DNA from: Cyathus striatus
Taxonomy: Eukaryota > Basidiomycota > Agaricomycetes > Agaricales > Nidulariaceae
Direction: 5' to 3'
Assembly (NCBI GenBank): GCA_025738555.1
Contig: JAOVFP010000010.1
Location: 744,001-808,000, forward strand
Length of the DNA: 64,000 bases
Shown here: positions 38,108 to 61,589 of the stretch, piece after piece
Position numbering within the stretch: the first letter of the stretch is position 1
How the letters are laid out: each line of letters opens with the position of its first letter
The notes under the pieces: generated by a model
What the model saw: the letters and a program-made list of their open reading frames with translations, nothing else
Told to the model about the DNA's origin: nothing
Database searches by the model: none
Program-made: the position numbers and the translations under genes

Positions 38108-38128
38108 TTTCTATGTATACTTATGTAT

Positions 38129-39053
38129 GAAGTTCCAAGTGTTGAAAAAGTCGCCGCCGCCGCAATTCAGTTGTGCTGTGGCTGTATCCACACTGCATAG
38201 TTAGAATTGCGGTTTTTTCTTGCTTATGTTGTATATAGATGAATAAAATGTGTACTATATTATATTCTATACATTTTGGTGCCTTTATGCGAGATGTATT
38301 CTGTGTTTTTGCTATGTTTTATCATTTGAAGAATTTTTCCCACGCTTCCCCACGCACTATTCAGCTTTCCGAAAACATACCAAATCTACCGAATAAATGT
38401 TGATTCAAATATATTGCATCTCTTCGTTATAAGATGCACTCTATCTTGAAATACATAATAATACAAAGTACACTGGGCACGTAAGAGATCATATTTACTA
38501 TGTCGAAAATTAAATAAGCTCATATACCATTCAACTCGTTACGTTGAATTGTGATATAACTTTATCTCTCACTTAATTGCAGCTTTACTTGTACACTATT
38601 AATTCTGTCTTATAACCCAAAATCTTCATGAGAATACGTAGCATGCAAGATTATCTAGATAATGCATAATGAAGAAATTGTGTTGAGCTCGATGGTGAGT
38701 AGCGATGAGTGGAGGAGCTGGACATTACAAAGGAGACCTAACATAAACTACTCTAACTATAGCTCAAAAACATTTGAATCAACATTTATTCGGTAGATTT
38801 GGTATGTTTTCGGAAAGCTGAATAGTGCGTGGGGAAGCGTGGGAAAAATTCTTCAAATGATAAAACATAGCAAAAACACAGAATACATCTCGCATAAAGG
38901 CACCAAAATGTATAGAATATAATATAATACACATTTTATTCATCTATATACAACATAAGCAAGAAAAAACAGCAATTCTAACTATGCAGTGTGGATACGG
39001 CCACGGCACAACTGAATTACGGCGGTGGCGACTTTTTCAACACTTGGAACTTC
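38129..39053. mobile_element. Foldback element FB3 (about 290-bp arms)
   Basis: Inverted arms run from GAAGTTCCAAGTGTTGAAAA at 38129 to the complement ending at 39053. The inner arm ends near 38420 and 38765. The centre is non-palindromic and non-coding. Confidence 0.85.
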
Positions 39054-39057
39054 AGGG

Positions 39058-42478: not shown

Positions 42479-44280
42479 TATGCCGCTCCGAATGGGAAAT
42501 TAATCGCCGTACTCTAGTTCGGCTGCCGTAGGAAAGGGTGTACCGTAGTCTATGGTTTTTCTTCAAATTTCCACATTTTCACCGTACGCTTTTGTTTTTA
42601 TGTATAGATTAATGTCATTACATGTTATAATAGCCATAAAATAGTCGTAAGTCGACCAAGAAGCTATGTTTATTCACAAAATGTTTTGTTCAACGGTATT
42701 TCCCACGCTTAAATGAAATGCCTTACATCGCTACTTATCGATTGTTCAGGTGTCCAAGCCTCAAGCTCAACATATCTATGATATCTCGAACACTGGTTGT
42801 AACTCTTATATAAATTTATTTAATTTATTCTCTAACTGTTATCTTTTCTTGATTCTTTCTTTGAATCCGGAACATGTGTTTTAACCCCCTAGTTTGTATT
42901 GTTGTGTTGTGTTCAGAAGCTAGTTGAGATTCCTTCTGTCAGAATTGACGATATGGATGTATACCATTGCATGACGAGCCTATATATTTGAATGCATACG
43001 CGTAATGCATTTCTCTCACCTCCATGTGTAATACTGTAACACACCTCAACGCTTTCACCCTTGGACCAGATATGCATTTGTGGAGAATATATATACAGCA
43101 TGCCTCCACTACTCAGAATATCTTCTCTATTCGGTATTCAATTTTCTCTTCATAGCTCTTCGACCTGAAACAGCATATTTAATAAAACAACTTATGCTGG
43201 CTTGTCATTTAAGTTTCCAGAAAAAATTAATTTGATATGTATTGGCATTATATTTATAATGAGGATTACAAGAGCGCAAGGCTGAATAAAGTCAAAAGGT
43301 GGACTGAAGTGCTGTAAGATTGCATACTTAAAGCACGTCAATCGAGTGTGGGCAATGCATGGGAAATACCATTGAATAAAACATTTTATGAAAAAACATA
43401 GCTTCTAGGTCGATTTAAGACTATGTTACACATTAATTTTTTTCAGAGACTTAAATAACAAGCCAGCATAAGTTGTTTCATTAAATATGCTGTTTTAGCT
43501 CGGGCACTTATGAAGAGAAAATTGAATAATGAATGGAGAAGATATTCTGAGTAGCGGAGGCATGCTGTATAAATATTCTCCACAAATGCATATCTGACAG
43601 GCAAGCATTGAGTATATCTGGTCCGAGGGTGAAAACGTTGAAGTATGTTACATTATTACACCCGGAGGTGAGAGACATGCATTACGCATATGCATTCAAA
43701 TATATAAGCTCGTCATGCAACAGTATGCATCCATATCGTCGATTCTGACAGAAGGAATTTCAACTAGCTTCTGAACACAACATAGCAACACAAACTAGGG
43801 GGTAGAAACATATGATCCGGATTGATTTCGGGCTATATGGTATAATAATTCGTTCATATACAACATATACATTTCTACATATAAGAGTGAGAGCTTACAA
43901 AGAAAGAATCAAGAAAAAGATAAAGGTTAGTGAATAAATTTAATAAATTTAAATGAGAGTTATAACCAGTGCTTGAAGTATCATAGATATGTTGAACTTG
44001 AAGCTTGGACACCTGAACAATCGATAAGTAGCGATGTAAGGCATTTCATTTAAGCGTGGGAAATACCGTTGAACAAAACATTTTGTGAATAAACATAGCT
44101 TGGTCGATTTACGACTATTTTATGGCTATTATAACATGTAATGACATTAATCTATACATAAAAACAAAAGTGTACGGTGAAAATGCGGAAATTTGAAGAA
44201 AAACCATAGACTACGGCACACCCTTTCCTACGGCAGCCGAACTAGAGTACGGCAATTAATTTCCCATTCGGAGCGGCATA
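42479..44280. mobile_element. Foldback element FB6 (about 750-830-bp arms)
   Basis: The largest palindrome: arms 42479-43215 and 43448-44280 around a 230-bp centre. It begins TATGCCGCTCCGAATGGG and ends with the complement. (A/T)CTATG on both flanks may be a 6-bp target duplication. The arms are diverged by a few percent, so it is an old element, not an assembly hairpin. Confidence 0.85.
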
Positions 44281-44325
44281 TCTATGAAGTTCCGTATGAA
44301 GTTCCGAGTGTGGAATAATTCACCA

Positions 44326-44570
44326 TGTAGAGCAGGCATTCTGCCTGCATGGTAAAAATGCATTTTTCATTTCCGTTACCTCACTCCTTACATACTCCTG
44401 TTTACCTCGTGTTGCATACCTACATAACTGTCATATGTACGCCTTGAGATATCCAGTTTCGCATTTCCCCCCTTTCTCTCTCTCAATGGCAAGATTAAAT
44501 ATTCTTCATCATTAAAGCTCCACATTTAACCTTTCTTCAAAGTTCGATGTATCTTCATATTCTTTGTAGT
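44326..44570 (+). mobile_element. LTR family L1, right end undefined
   Basis: Starts TGTAGAGCAGGCATTCTGCC and follows the copy at 47670 closely for about 160 bp. No matching right end or target duplication is found before the minisatellite at 44806, so it is probably truncated. Confidence 0.6.
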
Positions 44571-44805
44571 TAAACGATTATAATCTGTCATCAGCACACA
44601 TATATTAGTTTCTTGTGGGCACGTATATTAAAAAGTGACACTGTATGCCATGTACGACAAAACCTCATTCCGAGAAAGTTCTCATGCTTACCAAGGCGAT
44701 GGAATTTCCATAGGGACTCCGATTTTTCCATCTGTATTTCAGTAATTTTTCCATATACACACGTAGGAACTTTGTAACTGTGAACAAATGGGCTGCATAC
44801 TTTTC

Positions 44806-45236
44806 GAGTTTTTGTCGAGTTTTTCGAGTTTTTGTCGAGTCTCACTTAAGTTATAGTCGAGTTCCACTATTGAGCTCACTTAAATTTTTCGAGTCAAAGT
44901 TAAGTTACCTCAAGTGGCCATTTTCTTATTTCGAGTGGACTCGAGTTCCCCAATTTTTTTTTTTGGTGAAAGTCGAGTTCCCTCGAGTGGACTTAAGTTC
45001 CTTTATTTCGAGTGGACTCGAGTTCCCTATTTATTTATTTTAGTGAAAGTCGAGTTCCCTCGAGTGGACTTAAGTTCCTTCTTTTTTTTTTTTTGGTGAA
45101 AGTCGAGTTCCCTCAAGTAAACTTAAGTTCCTCGCTTATTTTTTTTTGACTGAAAGTTGAGTTCCCTCAGATCAAGTTAAGTTAGTACCTTATGTTTTTC
45201 CAGTGAAAGTTGAGTTCTTAAGTTCCATTCGAGTTA
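44806..45236 (+). repeat. Left minisatellite array (AAGTTCC / CGAGTTCC motif)
   Basis: More than a dozen irregular repeats of GT(C/T)GAGTTCCCTCGAGTGG and ACTTAAGTTCC units, interspersed with T-runs. The same motif in the same orientation forms the array at 56215-56582. Short open frames here are translations of the repeat. Confidence 0.85.
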
Positions 45237-45473
45237 TCGGTAACTAGAAAAGTTGACGGCCCCTTTAGCTGCTGTGATACGCCGGTTAACGACTATCAGA
45301 AGATCCGAGTAGTCCCAATATGAAGGCGTTGGGTTGGCATACAGATTGTATCTAAGAGGCTATATATACTTTCCATAGACTTATGAGCACTATGGTGAAC
45401 GCCTTTTCTCACTTAGCTCAACACTCCTACTCACTGTAGTACACGCCTCCTCGCATGGAGTCGTGTAGCCAGA

Positions 45474-47669: not shown

Positions 47670-47928
47670 TGTAGAGCAGGCATTCTGCCTGCATGGTAAA
47701 AATGCATTTTTCATTACCATTACCTCACTCCTTACATACTGCTGTTTACCTCGTGTCGCCTACCTACATAAATGTCATACATATGCTTCGAGAAATTCAG
47801 CTTTGCATTTCCCCCCTTTTCTCTCTCTCAATGCGAGCTCACTGGATCTGAAGGTTGGACAGATGTGCCAACCACTCGCATCATTTCTTTGTCGAGAGGA
47901 TACCGCCAAGCAAATATCCTCCTCCACA
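47670..47928 (+). mobile_element. Solo LTR, family L1 (internally deleted)
   Basis: TGTAGAGCAGGC start and CCTCCACA end, with ATAG duplicated at 47666-47669 and 47929-47932. It is shorter than the other members because sequence after CTCTCTCAATG is missing. Confidence 0.78.
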
Positions 47929-48065
47929 ATAGCCTTAAATCAATCACACATGTTGTCGTGTGACAATCTCTTCCACGCCCTATACTATATCTTGATCATG
48001 TACTGTTTCATTAAATTCCTGGCTGTATCATTAGTACTCGCTGTTTCTAATTCTTGTACACATAT

Positions 48066-48495
48066 GAAAAAGATTGCAGTGGTAGACTTATCTGTTGACA
48101 ACATCAACCCTGCCGATCCTGTACCTGATATCCAGACTTGCCACTCATGATCTCACTTAGATGCCAAATGTGATGCACCTCCCAAACCTTCACATCTTGA
48201 ACAAGCAGCCGAAGATTCCAAGCGCAGTAGTGAATGACTCCAACAGGCATGTGAAACATGTAAGTCTCTTAACGAGTTATGACAGACAGGATGAAGTAGG
48301 GAATAATCTCCCACTGATTCCTTAACTGAAAAACTAGGTGTTGCATTGGCTGACATATCTGAGTCTCTTGGCATTGAGCCATGATATTTCCAGGCAATAG
48401 TACCAGTAGAGTAGTTGAACTTGATTAACATCTATGTGATTATGCGCATTGCTACTGGATGGCCGGAGCGAGTAGTAATATGTCATTGATATGTC
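48066..48495 (+). pseudogene. Decayed coding frame upstream of the transposase
   Basis: One reading frame from ATG 48066 (MKKIAVVDLSVDNINPADPV) continues as plausible protein, for example DAKCDAPPKPSHLEQAAEDS and SLTEKLGVALADISESLGIE, through nine stop codons. Seven of these are TGA, as expected if CGA codons had mutated. It leads into the donor GTGAGT at about 48510 and from there into the transposase exons. No family is recognised; the charged helical composition would suit a linker or coiled-coil region of the same protein. Confidence 0.5.
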
Positions 48496-51400
48496 TGAGG
48501 CGCATCAGGTGAGTACATGTTACATGGGGATAATACTTTTTTTCTGCAGTTCGAAAAAGGGGGCTTTATTGAAACAGGCTCATTGCTTCGGACCTCAACA
48601 ACATTTTTATCCCAGCTTGCAGCAAGTTATAGATAGTGCTAAACAGGAATCGAGAAATGGGATTTGTATGTACTAGTAATCAGTATTCATCTATAACTTT
48701 TTGCTTACACAATAGCAGACCAAATTTGTGCAGTCGATTGCAAGTTTATTTGCTGTCGGACATAAATGCAAATGTTCCATTTCGAATCCCACATCTCCCC
48801 CTCCAAAGAAACTGAAAGCTTCCAGTGGCGAAGAGAAGACTGAAGGAGAGGGGAGTAGGAGGGAAACAACTATGCAGGATCTCCTCAATACGACCGGTTT
48901 GTTACACTATAATGATATGCCCTCTACCTTTTCTAACATCCGCCACCAGGTGTGGTTATAGCCTGCTTACAGACCTACAAAAATGAAACACAGGACGATA
49001 TTGATAAGAAGAATAAAATAATTGGTGAAGTATACGAACGGGCGGAACAAGGCATACCGAAAGGATTCGCACTCTTTGTAACACCTGAAGGTCAGTTATT
49101 GATGTATACTAAGACATTATTTGCTAGATACTATCTATCCTTTTGCATTAGGACATGTCCGTGGATATATTCCAAGGCCCATTGAAAGGGACATAACCGG
49201 ACTACTTCCTGAGCCCATGGAACCTATATGGTCAACTGCAACCCATGCACAGACACAAGTCAATGCTAAAGCTTCAAAGAATAACACTAACCGCCGGACT
49301 GCACATCGTACAGACGACAACAGCAACAGCAATGACAGTGACAATAATGGTAGTGACAGTACTGGCAGTGACAGCAATGACAGTGATAGAGAGATTGATG
49401 ACGACGAAGACAATGGGAAGGGCCTGAACACTAAGAATGGTCACAAGTTCGGAGGAATCAATGAACACGAGCTCAAAAATATCACCAAAACAGTTGAACT
49501 TTGGCCCAGTGAAGACCCTAATACATGGAACACTTTTCCAGATGGGGAGTGGCATCACAGATACTCTCTGCGGTATTATGCTGATACAGGACGAATGAAG
49601 ATCCAATGGGTGAATCAGTCATCTTGGGGGGTGAAAAAGAATGGAAGCCGAAGTGCAAAAAAATACAAAGGAGGCTACAGAAGTGAAAGAACTTGTCGAG
49701 GAGTCTTTACCTGCAATAATCCCCATTGCAAAGTTATTATTCGCACCAGAGCCACAGTGCAGGAACGAGTTGGGCAACAGGAGCACAAGTGTAAGCAATG
49801 TAGGAACCTGATCACCTACATTACATGCCGTGCAAAGGCCATTACTTATGTTTATAAGACGGGCATATATTTCCATCAGCATGGTTATCATCATCACGGC
49901 AAACTGGGTGACATAGTTAGTCCCTTACCAGTGCAGCGCGACAAGCTAAGGCAGGATGTCATCAAATATCCAAACGCTAAAGCTTCGGAGCTGAAGACAG
50001 GACCGCGAGATGTAATAGGCATACCTGGGGTGCCAGCGACTGATTATTCCTCCTGCTATAACAATACCCACAGAATCGCTGTGGAAAGAAGACAGATCAT
50101 TGAGTCTTTGGGGGGCCCCCCAATGACGCTGGAGTTCAATCTCGAAGCATACAAAACATTTTCTAAAGCATATCTGACATTTATTGTCGCTGAGGATCTT
50201 ATCGACAAGAAAGTTATCTCTTTCCAATCTACTTGGATGGCTTCCTTACTCATCAGAGCTGATTTTAATCCTTCTGGGTTAAATGGTGTTATCTCAGATG
50301 CCGCGCATGGCTGGTGGAAAGACAGGTCTTCTCTTGTTATTATTTCTACACTCTATTGCATGCAAACTTTATCATGGATGCCGGTCTTGTTCACCTACAG
50401 TGACAGCGGAACAAGCCTACACTACAAGCTTCATTTCCGGGTGTTATTCGGAAATATCTTCATTCTGTACAGAGAGAACAACGTGCAGATTACCGATCGT
50501 GCCTTCTCTGGGGTGTGTATTTTATATGCTCTCTCTCTATAGATAACACACATTAACCATCTGTTAGGTTGTTGATTTCAGTGAGGCCCAGCGAAATGGG
50601 TATGTCGACGTGTTTGTTGAGATGGCCATTGAAATGAATGATCCTCGGGACGTTGATGAACTGATGGTCACCGCTGGGGGTCTTCTGAAAGGCTGCCAAC
50701 AGCATTTCAGGAGCAGTGTGAGGCGTATAAAGCATATGAAAGGAATCGCCGACGATTCCAATGGCTATAAATTCGAAATGAACGTGCTTCGTCTTCTCGA
50801 TGTGCCGGCGAAAGAATTTGACCAGATTCTCGAGAAGATTTTTCTAACCTTCCCGAAGGTGAAGCCATGGCTCTCCTGGTATTTACAGCCCCACATGGCA
50901 TCCATGATTTTCCAGTGTAAATGAACGATGGAGGTTACTGAATGGACATCTCTACCATCCACAATGAATGCTGAGGAAGCGCAGCACTTCAAGATGTACA
51001 TGGCCCAGGGTCGAGACCACTACTTTTATGAAGGCCTTAAATCGTTGAAGGTGCTTGCAGACGCGAACGAAATGACATTCAATGCTGTCATTAGTAAGTC
51101 TTTACTCTTATCTTAAGTTGGGGAAGGTACTGATATTTATTTTCACAGCTGGTGCACGTATTCGTTATGGAAAAGCTGCACCCTGGCAGACATATGATTG
51201 AAAGTCTCGCCATCCAGAAAGGAAGCCAATAAATGACTTGACAGATGAGGAAACATGGAAGGAAAGTAAAGCGACCGAATCGCCTGAAGAGGAGTCTCCA
51301 AAGAAAACATTGGTTGAGAATGAACCGAAGAAGAAAAGAACAGAGAAGATCGTGAACGATGGTCGTCCTTACAATCCCAAAACAAAAAAATATCTAGATA

Positions 51401-54400
51401 CCCAAGTGGGTCTAAATGAAGCTGCTAAGAACGAAGAGAAGGCTAAGCTCCTTCAAGTGACAAAAGCAGCGGATAGAGCCACAAAAAATACCACAAACAA
51501 AGTTACAACACAATGGAAGACTCGACAAGGACCTAAAGGTATTACGAAGCCTCAAAAGAAGAAAACTCAGCGCGAGATACTACCTGAAGGCATTACGAAG
51601 CCTCAAAAGAAGAAAACGTATGACGATTATAGCTCCAGTATCTTTAATGAGGGCGCGAGCCCAGTCTTTTTGCTTCCTTCTCATGGGAGGATAATTCGTG
51701 CTGGTTGGATTCCTCTTTACAGCTATTATTTCAGGCTTTGTATCATCGCCCCCGCGACTTCACAACTGCGGTGAGGACTGTGCCACCAAACTGCCATCTG
51801 AAGGTAGTCGAAACATTATTTCATAAATACTCGGGCTATCAAGCCGAAGTCTTTAGCCAATCCTCTGTAAAGAAGCTGTCAGAGGAACGGAATACATTTT
51901 TAGCCTATCTCGCAAATAATAGGATAGGAAGTGTTAAAAAGGGCGAATTTAACAATCTCTGGGTGAGTTGGTACGATCTATCACGTATACTTTCTTATTG
52001 GCTTCATGGTTAGGAATGGTTTTATGACATTGTGAATGAGGCGAGCACAGAAAGTAAGTATAACGGCCACCTGTACTTTGAATGACTCGAGGTGGCCATA
52101 CACGTATGTTGTAAAGCTCTTGACGCAAACGAGATTACACACTTGTACATGGAAAAAACGCCGAAACGGAAAAGGGCCATTCATCTGAACATTAACGACT
52201 TTAACACATTCAAAGGAAATGCAAATACCTGGCTTCAACATCAAACCTGCTTTAAATATGACATCCACGATGTACTTCCCTGTTACAGAACCATTGATGG
52301 CGAGCCCAAGTGCACTGGGGTTAACTTCAATATTACGAAATGGTTATCTATCCCAGTCATACTAATCATCAATGTGGATGAGGGTTGTTTTACGCCTCAA
52401 GGCAAGGACAACTTACCTTTAGTTTGGAATTTTCTGGGGGAAATTCGACCTGACGGGGGGTCCATTACTTACGAAATGATCGGGCGTGCTTTCTATGGTG
52501 CTAACCACTTTAGAACTCGGTACATGTACAACGATGCAATTTACGACTATGATGGGATGGACAATGGTATTGCAATGGAGCTCACCGATGTGACGGCTAA
52601 GACTGCTCTGTACAGACAGCACATAAATCCTCCACCCAGCTTCTCCACAACCATGGTTGTTTATAAATTGCGAGGTGGAATAAGTTCACAAGAATCATTC
52701 TTAGAGCGACAGGTCGCAAAGGTTCTTGAGTTACATCAGATTAGCGTGGATACGGAGGGGCTACAGAAACCTCCGGTATTAAAGTACCGTGGAGCTGATC
52801 TTTCTCCAGAGGTCAATCGTCCATGGTTTGCGAAGAAGAAGCAAGTGTATACTCGGGAATATACTAAAGTTATTTCTGAACTGCCCACAACGCCACCAGA
52901 AGAATCGTCAACTCTGCACCATTGAGTTATCCCCATTACAGATGATGAGAGCAACGAACCTTCCATTCCGCCAGAGGAATCGTCAACTCAGCATCCAGAA
53001 GAGAAGCGTTCTTCGCAACTACAAGCTGAGGAAGATGACGACTCTGTCGAAAGCGACTCACCTTTCAATTGTCGATGCGGTGTAGCTGGAAACGGCCCAG
53101 AACTCGACGCGGAGGCACCAGGAGCTATTCAATGCTACAGGTGCAAAGATTGGATGCACTTGGCTTGCCAACGAGGTGGACAAGGATCTTGGCTTCCAGA
53201 AGAAACAGATTTCATCTGTGACTACTGCTCAAAGGGAGTGTCTTATAAACCGTAAGCAACCTTTTACTCACTTTATAGCAATGTTTCTTATATTTCCGCC
53301 TTTCAGGCCAAAACTTCCACCAAGGTGGCTACTAAGAAAGCAAAAAGATCGCTTACTGTTAGTTCTTCCTAGCCACATAAGAGATAACTACTAACCATTT
53401 TCGTCAACTAGAGCAGGGAGAGGCGCTTTAATCCTAGTCGGTTTGTATTGGTACCCAGGAAGGATTCTTAGGAAGGTCGAGCTAGGAGATGAGATGCAAT
53501 GGGACGTAAAGCTTTGGAGGGACTGTAGTATTCCTGAGAGCAATCAAGGAGAATTTCATATCTATAATGGAGTTAGGGAAAGCGAAATTGTTGATGAGCT
53601 GTGGACAGATATTCAAGGCCGGCAAGCGATACAGGTGATCATATTTTTATAGTATTAACATAATAGCTAACGAACATATCAGCTTGGTCATTGGAAGCTG
53701 GCGATTAATACTCCTTCCGAGGAAGACATAATCGAGAACTTCATAAAGACTCCGGTAACAAAAGAAATGGACAGAATCCTTGGTCCTCACATCACTATAC
53801 TGGATGAGCTACTCCATATCGACATCTACAAAGTCGATCTCCGAAAATATAAGAACGTACCAGTACTTCATTATGTTCGCAGAATGGAGAAATACCCCAA
53901 GGAGCGAAGCCTAAGTTATATTCGAGGGACAGTTGACCATTATGGAAACCTGATGGCTCAGCAACGAGCTGAAATCGTGCATTGGTTCTCCATTAATATT
54001 GCTTCGGCATCGTCAGACAAGAAAAAGCCTTCGAAGTGTCATCCATCAAAGTGAATGCTTACCGTATCATTTGCACATGCAGTGACATTATACATCATGT
54101 CGGTCTACAAGGATAGGCTTGAAGCCAGAAAGAAGCCTGTCGAAGCCGCATGGATATACCAGGTGAAGGAAAGGATGATGCCTTCTATAGATGTGGATCG
54201 CGAGTGCGTGACAATGTTTGAACAGAGACTGTTCGAAAGTTCGATTGAAGCAGACCGCGCTGGAAGTGGAATTTGGGGATTCGATGTTGGGCCTCTCCAG
54301 AATGAATGGTTCCCCTATAATGAAGTCCCTGCTTACTGGCGAGAATCAAAATTTGAAGATGTTCAAGAGGATCTGGAGGTACGCTTATGTATGCTCATCC

Positions 54401-54432
54401 TGGACTGTCGTATTAATTATGTCGTCGAATAG
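48490..54432 (+). pseudogene. Giant GCM-type Mutator-like transposase with PHD finger (decayed, multi-exon)
   Basis: Exons read in order. (1) 48548-49089, low-complexity N-terminus. (2) 49153-50511, Ser/Asp-rich stretch, then a WRKY-GCM1-like zinc finger (CRGVFTCNNPHC, then CKQC and FHQHGYHHHGK at about 49700-49900), then the start of the Mutator DDE core (ISDAAHGWW; VLFTYSDSGTSLHYKLHFRV). (3) 50570-51094, VVDFSEAQRNGYVDVFVEM with the second Asp, and WLSWYLQPHMASMIF. (4) 51149-51697, basic linker. (5) 51735-52013 and 52014-53233, with GEPKCTGVNF, SIPVILIINVDEG and HFRTRYMYNDAIYDYDGMD (possibly USP-like), then a PHD finger (NCRCGVAG, CYRCKDWMHLAC, CDYC). (6) 53410-54432, LYWYPGRILRKVEL and WGFDVGPLQNEWFPYNEV. 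Junctions have GT..AG. In-frame TGA stops at 50922, 51199, 52083, 52923 and 54052 inactivate it. Family role: DNA transposition. Confidence 0.8.
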
Positions 54433-54465
54433 GTTGGTCCTAACTATAAAGAAGAATAGCTAGTA

Positions 54466-56214: not shown

Positions 56215-56582
56215 CAGAGTGAAAAGTTAAGTTCTGTCGAGTGATAGTCAAGTTCAGTTAAGTTCCATCGAGTGAAAGTTAAGTTCCTTCGATTAAAAAG
56301 TTAAGTTCCGTCGAGTGGAAGTTAAGTTCCTTCGAGTCAAAAGTTAAGTTCCTTCGAGTCAAAAGTTAAGTTCTGTCGAGTGGTAGTCAAGTTCAGTTAA
56401 GTTCCTTCAATTAAAAAGTTAAGTTCCGTCAAGTGAAAGTTAAGTTCCTTCGAGTCAAAAGTGAAGTTCTGTCAAGTGGTAGTCAAGTTCAGTTAAGTTC
56501 CTTTGATTGAAAAGTTAAGTTCCATCTAGCAAAAATTCAAGTTCCTTTGAATGTATGTTAAGTGAATATTAAGTTACTTAAA
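56215..56582 (+). repeat. Right minisatellite array (GTTAAGTTCC motif)
   Basis: About twenty units of 16-18 bp such as GTTAAGTTCCTTCGAGTC and AGTTAAGTTCCGTCGAGTG. A higher-order period is visible (GTGGTAGTCAAGTTCAGTTA recurs three times). It has the same orientation and core motif as 44806-45236. Confidence 0.88.
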
Positions 56583-56960
56583 GTCCATGTGACTTCATGG
56601 ATTAGAAGTGCTCCTGTACGATGTTCTAGATTGCTCTTGTTATTAAGTTTATTAGGTGGTAGTAATATAACGTGAGCAGTCGACTTGCTTATGTTGCATC
56701 TAGTGTTTTTTTTAAAAAGTTTATGCTATGAAATCCTTAATATTATTCTTCAGTATGCATAGATCCCCGTAGTTGTACACTCGACGAAAAGTATTATATA
56801 TCTCAATTTTTTTCCAGATTGTTTCAGCATTGAAAGTTCGCACAACAAAGAGTATCATATAGTTCTTTTTAGTTCAACTAGTTGTAAGGTTAGTTTTTTT
56901 TTAAAAGTTCACGGCATAAATAGTAGTGATATGATCTGAGCAGTTGCATATAATTCACAA

Positions 56961-57041
56961 GGTCAATTAGCCTAATGGTACAGTGCGAATAAACATTGTA
57001 CTAGTCTTTGGAAGACTTTGGGTTCGAATTCCGAATGGACC
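56961..57041 (+). repeat. tRNA-like repeat 1 (Pol III box A and B motifs)
   Basis: Contains TAGCCTAATGG (fits box A, TRGYNNARNGG) and GGTTCGAATTCC (box B with one extra base), 81 nt apart end to end, plus an anticodon-arm-like hairpin AGTCTT/AAGACT. The acceptor ends GGTC..GGACC pair for only about four bases. More likely a tRNA-derived repeat than a working tRNA. Confidence 0.6.
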
Positions 57042-57085
57042 TCTAGGTCAATAACTTCCGAGTTCTTTTTCCAGATTGATCTTAA

Positions 57086-57168
57086 GGTCAATTAGCCTAA
57101 TGGTACAGTGGCAAACCAACGTTGTAATATATTGTGGAAGGCTTTCAGTTCGAATTCCAGTAAGTACC
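57086..57168 (+). repeat. tRNA-like repeat 2
   Basis: Same TAGCCTAATGGTACAGTG box A and a CAGTTCGAATTCC box B; the middle part differs from copies 1 and 3. No complete cloverleaf is evident. Confidence 0.55.
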
Positions 57169-57251
57169 TGTTCATATATTTTATAATGTCTTTTAAAAGT
57201 TTGTGCCACGAATAGTAGTGATATGATCTGAGCAGTTACATGTAATTTCTA

Positions 57252-57333
57252 AGTTCAATTAGCCTAATGGTACAGTGCGAATAAACGTTATACTAGTCTT
57301 TGGATGGCTTTGGGTTCAAATCCAAATAAGTAC
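57252..57333 (+). repeat. tRNA-like repeat 3
   Basis: TAGCCTAATGG box A and a canonical GGTTCAAATCC box B. The upstream 55 bp (TAGTGATATGATCTGAGCAG) are shared with copy 1, so the repeating unit is larger than the tRNA-like part, about 290 bp. Confidence 0.6.
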
Positions 57334-57845: not shown

Positions 57846-58734
57846 ATGGCTGAAGATAATTGTGCTTTGAATCACAACGGCACATTGAAGGATGCCAGCG
57901 AAATTCAATGGCATTACGACCCTGACGACGAGATGCCTCTACCGAAGAATAACAAGAGAGCAAGAATAGAGGTGATGTATTATGCTGAGAGTAACGAATG
58001 TATTATTGAAGTCTTTCATCTCGTACAGAGAATGTTCTTAGATATCGAAGCGAAGGTGGCTACTGACTCAGAGGATGAAGAGGACGGTGAGAATATGGAT
58101 GGTATGTATAATTCATTACCCGAATTCAAATTATCTGGCTGAAATTGACTATTGTAGGGTTTATCAATGATGAGGATCAGGATGAGGAAGATCCCAACAC
58201 CCCCATAGCACAACTGATACTTCAGCACTCGCTTTACACGCGCTTACAAAATGAAGACAAGAAACAGCAAGTTATGGATCGCTTACGCTCAGGTGGAGGG
58301 GACCTTCTTGCGAGTTTACAAGCAGGACAACACATTGATAATCACCGCGAACTTATCAACGATATTTTTACAATGTATGTTAACTCAAGTCCTAGTTCAT
58401 ACATAGGTGCTGTTTCACAAGCGAGCGGAACTAGTTCTTCGGCAGTCAGCAAGCATAGTATCCCTCGACGCGGCCGTAATTCTGGGGACTGGCCCCTTTG
58501 GGATCTAGTGGTTAAGGTCAGTCAGTACAATACGGATATGTCTGAGATCTTATTTACATTTTATAGGATGGATCTGAGGAACATGTGGTATTTTCCCTCA
58601 GCTTACACGGCGGCCCAAAGTATATCCACAGTGCATTTTCGTTATCGGTCATCCCTGGTCACGTTTATGTGGAGGCTAAATGTCTCGACGATGTCATTTG
58701 TAAAGTACTTAATACAGACCATAATGGTTATTAG
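57846..58734 (+). CDS. Spt5-like protein: acidic N-terminus and NGN domain, short form
   Basis: Three exons, 57846-58101, 58158-58516 and 58567-58734, with introns of 56 and 50 nt (donors GTATGT and GTCAGT; acceptors TTGTAG and TTATAG). The start is ATG 57846 (MAEDNCALNHNG). The middle matches the Spt5 pattern VQRMFLDIEAKVATDSEDEE followed by a further acidic run (FINDEDQDEEDP). The end is an NGN domain: WPLWDLVVK joined to DGSEEHVVFSLSL, then IHSAFSLSVIPGHVYVEAKC and DDVICKVL. Spt5 normally pairs with Spt4 and clamps RNA polymerase II; the KOW domains are missing here, and TAG ends the frame at 58734 just after the NGN region. The frame is open and correctly spliced, unlike the neighbouring transposase. 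It is therefore either a recent truncation or a real short protein. Host Spt5 would be far longer. Confidence 0.7.
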
Positions 58735-59628: not shown

Positions 59629-60396
59629 TGAAGAGGAGGAAGTGCGCTTGAAGGTTCCTCAATGAAGAAATGCGAGCGGTTGGCACATCCGTCCAACCTT
59701 AAGGTTCTAAGGTAAGGTGAAAGAGTGTGTTAGCGACGTAATTGAGAGAAATGACGACGCAACAAGGAGCAGAACTTCGAGACAAAGTTCTGGAGTGAAT
59801 TCGGAAAAATGGGACTTGGTGAGAACGATTCAGAACGAACGAGACGACTCAGAGACAGAACGAGAGAGAGTGAGAGGTAGAAATGAGGGGGTGAATTTCA
59901 CTAAAGTACCCTAGACCTAGATACACGGTTTAAATAAGAAAAAGGGAAGGAAATATACCTAAAAGGAGTGAATAAAAATTTATTAAGTCCAAGGAGGTGA
60001 TAGGAACTTGACTACGGTTTCAAGGAGTGTGATATTATGAGAATGAAAAATAGTTGTAGAGAAGTCTTGAAGCGATGGGGAGGGGGGAACAGATGTAGAG
60101 TTGTTGGCTCAAGCAATGTGGTGTGACCGATGCCCGGATGAAATTTGTTGTCCTGTGCATGTGTATCGAGGTCCGTTGCTTCGCAACTCTTATTAGAGTA
60201 CCTTGGGTGTGCTTCCGTGTGTGTCCGAGGTTTGAGATTTGAGTGGATTCGGTCCGATGCTGAGAGCGTTTGAGATGCGTTCAGGAGGACAGTTCAACAG
60301 CAGACGCGTTGACGCGCTTGATGGGAAGGTCACGTGATGACGCCGGAACGCGTCAGAACGTCGATTCTACCGTGCAGGCAGAAGGCCTGCTCTACA
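59629..60396 (-). mobile_element. Solo LTR, family L1, minus orientation
   Basis: Plus-strand ends TGAAGAGGAGG and GCCTGCTCTACA, flanked by ACGC (59625-59628 and 60397-60400). Units A and B show the empty site in the spacer (GAATACATGCTGTTAATG). GC-richer and better preserved than the L1 copies at 19042 and 47670, so probably younger. Confidence 0.85.
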
Positions 60397-60417
60397 ACGC
60401 GCTGTTAATGAAACTAC

Positions 60418-61589
60418 TGTTGAGTCACGCGACGAGAGTAGTTAGTTTATTAAATACTTAGAATGTAAATCCCAAATATAATAATCAACTTTAAATCCCG
60501 AGGTGCGAAGTCAGTAAGTTCGAGGGGCGCAATTGTGTTCAAGTCCAAATTTAGATCAAGTTAAAAATAGACAAGTTAAACTTAGGCTATTTTCGTTCTC
60601 GCGTCAAAGTATTCAAAGTCAAGTTCAGATTTTAATTCGGTATCGCGGTACGTATTTCTCGGTATCAAAACGTCTCGTAACTATATCTGATTCTCGTCTT
60701 TACACACCCTGTCTATGGGAGGGAAGAATGCCTGGCAGTTCCTGCCTTATTTCTTCCCTCTTCGTCTACTATATACATTTTCTACCTACTCTACTTACAA
60801 ATTGCGTAGTAATAAAATATGATTTATCTTCCGGTCATTTCTCCGGTCCGTGTATAAGGTAACGCGTTGTCAGCGCCCAGACGGCGGTCAACCAATCGTG
60901 CGCATAACCCAGCGCGCTCCCTTTCTGCGACGCGCGCTCGTTTGAGCGTTCTATCGGTTACCTTCCTAATCGGGTAATCAGCCGATGCGGCAGCGGCAGC
61001 TGCTCGCATCAATTTCATTTACATCGGTCTAACGGGTCGGTTTTCCGTTCCCGCGTGAACTCCTGACCGTTGGGGTACTCATTCTCGTTCCGTTCTTTCT
61101 TCCTTTCCCCACTTCTCGCGCTCTCCCTCTCTGTCTCACTGTTTCGTTGTCTCGTTGTCTCGTCGCCTCGTCGTCGTCACTCAAGCTCGCTGATCTCATG
61201 TCTTAGTGGTTCAGGGTCTGGGTCTTGGGGATTTAGTAAGTCCGTGTTCTGTCAATCTCCATACTTTGTATCGCGTGCTGACTTTGTCATTAGTCATTTT
61301 GGCTGCTCTGGGTGTCTGATACTCGTTGTACAGAATGCAACGTCGTTCTTTTGAAAGGTAAAGTAATACGTTATTTTATTGGTTTAAGGATTTAAAACCA
61401 GTACTGAGGCGGAGTATGTGTTTTAATAGGTTTATTTGTTTAATCCCTTGGTGTATTATGGGAGGCGGCGCGGGAACTCAGCCCCTCCCCGCTGTTTCCT
61501 CACTCGACGCACTCGGTACTGGTGTCTCGAAATCGAGACGTAAAGAATTTAAATTTACGGTATGTTGCATTTCTTTTACATGCGTATCA
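60418..61589 (+). mobile_element. Solo LTR, family L2
   Basis: Starts TGTTGAGTCACGCGACGAG and ends GCGTATCA, with CTAC at 60414-60417 and 61590-61593. Unit B lacks it at this site (AATGAAACTAGTGC). A second copy lies at 25144-26211 in reverse. CT-rich stretches inside and good CpG retention indicate a young insertion. Confidence 0.85.

Follow-up and report, generated by a model that had tools for sequence, protein, structure and literature searches.

The window, by which we mean the whole 64,000-nucleotide stretch of Cyathus striatus DNA that was analysed, very probably contains a decayed, right-truncated copy of a large Mutator-like, cut-and-paste DNA transposon of mushrooms, which would work by the mechanism proposed below. 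The sequence supports an element of 18.5 kb with short terminal inverted repeats (TIRs) and 9-bp (twice 10-bp) target duplications, whose ends are shared by shorter elements. It further supports a transposase that runs from a GCM finger and DDE core through a USP-type fold and a PHD finger to a beta module, in an element that also has an SPT5-like gene (Table 1). An earlier note on this DNA had recognised the anatomy of the protein; the SPT5-like gene, the ends of the element, the repeat arrays and the decay of this copy had escaped it.

Table 1. Features of the transposon copy, in positions of the window.
Feature	Position	Strand	Remarks
Left TIR GGGCTGCATACTTTTCGAGTT	44790..44810	+	Left element end; same start in other copies, adjoining 9-bp target duplications
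Array 1	44859..45226	+	11 RAGTTCC copies, all on the + strand; tandem repeats
Transposase gene	48716..54459	+	Ten exons; broken in the window copy; splice open in L010 and L021; relatives share the domain order
Transposase exons 1-5	48716-48896, 48950-49090, 49152-50512, 50568-51093, 51149-51962	+	
Transposase exons 6-10	52014-53251, 53307-53357, 53412-53634, 53683-54378, 54433-54459	+	
GCM-type (WRKY-GCM1-like) zinc finger	49520..49912	+	Pfam GCM in relatives; near-invariant Cys/His columns
DDE core	50285..50990	+	D 50297 (SDAAHG), D 50574 (VVDFSEAQ), C 50694 (GCQQHF), E 50976 (TTNAEE)
Predicted USP-type deubiquitinase domain	51670..52785	+	Exons 5 and 6; Cys 51699, His 52506, Asp 52551
PHD finger (C4HC3)	53062..53228	+	Pfam PHD 6.5e-4, 20.1 bits, under the cut-off of 24 (window exons)
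Small beta-rich WYPxR...WR module	53425..53530	+	Strands at 717-766 of the P0044 model
Array 2	56260..56545	+	11 RAGTTCC copies in the stretch separating the genes, upstream of the SPT5-like gene; tandem repeats
SPT5-like gene	57846..58694	+	Exons 57846-58101, 58158-58516, 58567 onward; window copy truncated at 58694

Comparison of flanks shows that the element extends leftward to window position 44790, and gives AACTCGAAAAGTTGACGGCCC as its right end in other copies, which reach further right than the window copy. The similarity of the latter ends at 58694, and the 40 of 210 candidates that were scored include no close right end in its vicinity. In the C3 copy (18,491 bp, target duplication CTCACATAC) the TIRs are short and imperfect, left and right ends agreeing at 17/21 bases; the C10 copy at 0.15 Mb measures 19,240 bp and is flanked by the duplication AATTAAACT. 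With ten more insertions (five long, five short) these make twelve read at both ends, and target duplications are present in all 12/12: ten are perfect 9-bp duplications, one is a perfect 10-bp duplication and one is of 10 bp with a mismatch. Eight of the ten additional insertions score 9/9 in a test fixed at 9 bp; the C8 insertion scores 2/9 there and has a perfect 10-bp duplication in its flanks, and the C6 insertion scores 3/9 and has a 10-bp duplication with one mismatch. The five shorter elements, 1.7-4.5 kb by coordinates, have the same ends as the long one (both ends read). These duplications lie within the 8-11 bp, typically 9 bp, that mark Mutator elements, and TIRs are present as well. 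The reading as a mobile element with Mutator-type target duplications is supported. A 1.5-kb piece of the transposase finds 23 strong matches, 86-100% identical and including the window's own, in the 107-Mb, 24-contig genome; a match at C14:2169786 (283 bp, 66%) was excluded from this number.

Several other structures lie in and around the window copy. The left 473 bp (44790-45262) close with the right-end-like AGAAAAGTTGACGGCCC at 45246-45262, as if the left terminus had been derived from a short end-to-end element. A nested long palindrome with several arm pairs (89-97% complementary, 194-nt centre) occupies 42479-44281 and a second long palindrome lies at 38128-39054, both of them possibly fold-back elements. 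The 258-bp stretch at 47671-47928, which starts with the palindromic TGTAGAGCAGGCATTCTGCCTGC, is missing from copies such as L012; it has a 90% copy at 44326 (44326-44488) and an inverted 32-nt copy at 60365-60396. Right of the element, window 60417-61589 is 79% alike to positions 2843-3964 of L031, where the sequence is a separate stretch after the element break.

The C3 element contains 38 forward RAGTTCC motifs and a single reversed one, whereas 200 shuffles average 2.7 and 1.9 and never exceed 7 in either orientation; the C10 copy has 35 forward and one reversed (shuffle means 2.6 and 2.0). The C3 sites fall into three clusters: the left end has 11, the stretch separating the genes has 15, and a further 12 lie towards the right end. 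The whole window holds 33 against 14.6 expected, a number that 0/100 shuffles reach. Also between the two genes, window 56899-57323 consists of ~131-bp repeats with tRNA-like (A- and B-box-like) words; a tRNA origin was rejected, ARAGORN and Rfam giving no match.

The second gene was modelled, in part, as seven exons (719 codons), which are open in the C3 and C10 copies; the last of the three copies read has two stops. Its product resembles cellular SPT5 in having both NGN and KOW domains (Spt5-NGN at 22.4 bits, exactly the Pfam cut-off; KOW below cut-off), in matching PDB Spt5 at 3e-14 over residues 194-508, and in one TPAW stretch, which the C-terminal repeat of fission-yeast SPT5 resembles. 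However, the protein of the element has diverged strongly, and a much better NGN match exists elsewhere in the host: a genome search with PF03439 (Spt5-NGN) hit two places, one on C20 (72.5 bits), which is probably the host's own SPT5, and apart from it G000:C22:1289612-1289785 (27.3 bits). The copies of the element gave no match in this search, so that the SPT5 reading depends on the NGN match at cut-off, the PDB Spt5 match and the homologue search. The latter, with 7,997 candidates scored, gave ten homologues, nine from Cyathus striatus (41-94% identity) and one a Coemansia Spt5. Among the Cyathus striatus homologues, P0010 has several further Pfam domains, including PF00400, which we take to be WD40.

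Within a limit of 30 kb, the SPT5-like gene lies downstream of 20 of the 23 strong transposase copies, 19 times on the same strand (20/24 with C14:2169786). This count used 24 of 32 transposase rows, eight pieces of <=90 bp being omitted, and 25 of 45 SPT5-like rows, 19 weaker rows and one 209-bp piece being omitted. The SPT5-like gene on C17 has the opposite strand, C3:3394028 has one 18.5 kb away, and 4/25 of the SPT5-like rows used have no transposase near. The gene could be a passenger that was captured a single time and has since hitch-hiked with the element without serving it. Plant MULEs often contain gene fragments, according to one account (PMC2528002), the homologues apart from one ordinary Spt5 were found in Cyathus striatus only, and one of the three copies read carries stops. 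Against this, seven exons are open in the other two, the gene follows most strong transposase copies, and array 2 stands upstream of it; we think a mere passenger rather unlikely.

The protein domains of the transposase were read largely from relatives. Two protein searches gave 43 distinct ones, all of which were aligned, from Psilocybe, Suillus, Lentinula, Mycena, Crepidotus, Gloeophyllum, Trametes, Schizophyllum, Coprinopsis and other genera; they are single database proteins with the same domain order. Identity between L010 and the Psilocybe protein P0001 is 28% over 97% of the 1,201 residues searched. On the window exons Pfam reports a weak PHD alone, the other domains coming from relatives and structures; the Pfam MULE and USP models had no match at E<=1 either in these exons or in the 32 of 43 relatives scanned. 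Among all 43, regular expressions of a stricter kind pick up fewer of the motifs than the alignment does (USP Cys box 21, PHD core 20, WYPxR-type motif 26).

The transposase chain continues, as its sequence supports, into a predicted USP-type deubiquitinase fold, and models of the relatives match the fold of USP catalytic domains. The earlier note had seen a USP-like domain, which the fold matches uphold, but not its start, since the Cys box NSCWLD lies further upstream, in exon 5; His and Asp follow in exon 6. Non-gap rows of the 43-relative alignment keep Cys in 36/37, His in 41/41 and Asp/Asn in 43/43, and the window has all three. Pan2 and USP39 are dead USP scaffolds, and the fold matches include the Pan2 pseudo-hydrolase and a tri-snRNP chain, so the domain might be a dead scaffold that only holds partner proteins. 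This is improbable: a dead enzyme would be expected to lose its triad, and its conservation among divergent relatives counts against such a scaffold.

Further along the deubiquitinase-bearing chain, a PHD profile built from four relatives hits the Bye1 PHD at 9.8e-7, and each of the eight C4HC3 ligands is kept in 35-38 of 35-39 non-gap rows. The WYPxR...WR module has no Pfam name among the relatives scanned; judging from the model, it is possibly Tudor/PWWP-like.

At the other side of the chain, Pfam GCM matches 8/28 relatives scanned (best 1.6e-4; below the Pfam cut-off where printed, P0002) and has no match at E<=1 from the window's own exon. The GCM ligands are retained in 34-37 rows of the alignment, with five single exceptions over eight columns. 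The link of a WRKY-GCM1 finger with a transposase core, called established in the earlier note, is indeed described (PMC2528002). In the DDE core, non-gap rows conserve the first D in 40/40, the second D in 40/41 and E in 42/42, spaced mostly by 74 and 135-136, and the C-x2-H between the second D and E has C in 38/40 and H in 39/40. The MULE pattern comprises just such a GCxxHF motif and D-74-D-135-E-like spacing.

KDZ elements also make 8-9-bp duplications, and the core could belong to KDZ or another such DDE class instead of being a Mutator relative. The lack of Pfam MULE matches in the window exons and scanned relatives would agree with this, as would a KDZ Pfam domain precomputed in one relative, P0052; scans of the window exons and of 28 relatives gave no match to that domain. 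Yet the remaining 42 have no precomputed KDZ domain, and the 9-bp duplications, GCM finger, GCxxHF motif and spacing all fit MULEs, and we give another DDE class only a slight chance. Among BFVD entries, the P0019 model is matched best by an uncharacterised bracovirus protein (E 1.6e-10, 534 columns), and Mutator 'Phantom' elements occur in insect viruses; with an rmsd of 18.4, this possible Mutator link is only a lead. The structure-match lists hold no DDE-core row, which is uninformative because the USP domain alone filled them. With PF10551, the genome search scored below cut-off at two sites elsewhere and did not match any copy of this element. Of the folds that the earlier note had proposed to look for, then, USP was recovered by fold and PHD by sequence, and the MULE core had no match to its Pfam model.

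All motifs quoted in that note are present, and all in one gene. Among 17 aligned copies, the shared ten-exon splice is open in two, L010 (1,752 codons, 98% identical to the window copy) and L021 (1,753 codons, 88%); the remaining 15/17, window copy among them, have at least one stop each, and some are also frame-shifted. Between L010 and L021, dN is 0.078 and dS 0.197 (dN/dS 0.39); by segment, dN/dS is 0.33 in the N-terminus, 0.40 in the GCM finger, 0.43 in the DDE core, 0.51 in the linker, 0.37 in the USP domain, 0.43 in the acidic linker, 0.13 in the PHD finger and 0.41 in the C-terminus. Since it is open in these two copies with such a dN/dS, the ten-exon chain is not a chance run of ORFs. 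The anatomy first proposed, in which a single gene combines the GCM finger and DDE core with the USP fold, the PHD finger and the terminal module, is supported. It is very hard to credit that a GCM-DDE transposase gene was run together with a neighbouring gene for a USP-PHD protein, or that still more genes were: the weak PHD that Pfam sees alone and the broken window copy might suggest it, but in two copies one splice stays open from the first exon to the tenth, each relative is one database protein of the same order with a gene model spanning exons 3 to 6, and dN/dS is at most 0.51 in all eight segments tested.

The 5' limit of this single gene differs from the span of 48490..54432 given earlier. 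An exon at 48490 was rejected: 48480-48716 has no frame shared between two subfamilies, and L010 lacks 47831-48363 yet stays open in the rest. No start codon was found for the gene. The window also has, at 48080-48440 and so upstream of the transposase, a decayed coding-like stretch (SLTEELGVALADISESLGIEP in L017), perhaps a 5' exon that the gene has lost, or else a further small gene.

When spliced, the window copy has 35 stops and a length that is not a multiple of three. Its core differs from L010 at 128 sites, of which 96 are C-to-T or G-to-A in the window, 83 of them at an L010 CpG; the reverse change is seen at 17 sites, 10 creating CpG. The bias is weaker in L012 (56/102) and L013 (66/110). 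Such a CpG-directed bias fits the loss of methylated CpG in silenced copies, by which the window copy may have decayed. In Agaricus bisporus, CG methylation is described as nearly confined to transposons (PMC12730594).

We propose that the GCM finger would bind the element ends or the RAGTTCC arrays and that the DDE core would cut and join DNA. The deubiquitinase would take ubiquitin off the transposase complex or nearby histones, the PHD finger and beta module would tether the complex to chromatin, and the SPT5-like protein could aid RNA polymerase II transcription of the element in repressive chromatin. More tentatively, and as a possibility that we would not call likely, the element might be a fungal counterpart of plant VANDAL anti-silencing. 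Its own products, either the transposase with its deubiquitinase or the SPT5-like factor or both, would be recruited to the same-strand RAGTTCC arrays at the ends and upstream of the second gene; there they would remove repressive ubiquitin marks and drive RNA polymerase II across methylated chromatin, by which the transposon would reopen itself. We infer this path from end binding to anti-silencing.

The element is a real Mutator-type transposon, with an ordinary insertion signature and an unusual predicted toolkit for chromatin and transcription. In many mushroom genera one chain combines a DNA transposase with a deubiquitinase fold and a PHD finger, and in one lineage this chain is paired with an SPT5-like gene. 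Among the open-licence papers listed in our searches, we found none that names a USP-fused MULE or a transposon-borne SPT5, and we know of no other mobile element with an SPT5-type elongation factor. If active, it makes testable how a transposon handles host ubiquitin signalling, chromatin and transcription.

Among known systems, FAR1/Jittery-type MULEs are described as sharing the N-terminal WRKY-GCM1-family finger and transposase core (PMC2528002), but end in a SWIM motif and not in USP-PHD. Rehavkus, compared by its description, likewise joins a PHD finger to a Mutator-like transposase and makes 9-bp duplications; however, it is an arthropod/annelid element with one ORF, its table row lists no GCM, USP or SPT5-like module, and the main text of that paper has no mention of ubiquitin, protease, peptidase, GCM or WRKY (PMC6446971). 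KDZ (Kyakuja-Dileera-Zisupton) and other fungal TET/JBP transposons are, as reported, mushroom DNA transposons with host-like genes thought to be anti-silencing, but they carry a TET/JBP dioxygenase in place of USP and SPT5, and the main text of that report does not mention MULE, Mutator, PHD, protease or Spt5 (PMC12730594). The VANDAL/KIU MULEs of Arabidopsis, likened by description, are also Mutator-type, with a ubiquitin-like cysteine protease (Ulp1 domain) and extra genes (VANC anti-silencing), and the link of Ulp1 proteases to VANC genes in plant MULEs is on record (PMC5735166, PMC13317346). VANDAL elements further share a short motif in same-orientation arrays in noncoding parts, the targets of VANC21 being dense motifs of this kind (PMC5735166). 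The mushroom element differs in that its protease is USP-type and inside the transposase chain, its second gene is SPT5-like and not VANC, and it has TIRs, KIU elements being non-TIR. If active, it would offer an independent counterpart to those plant MULEs that bear a protease and motif arrays.
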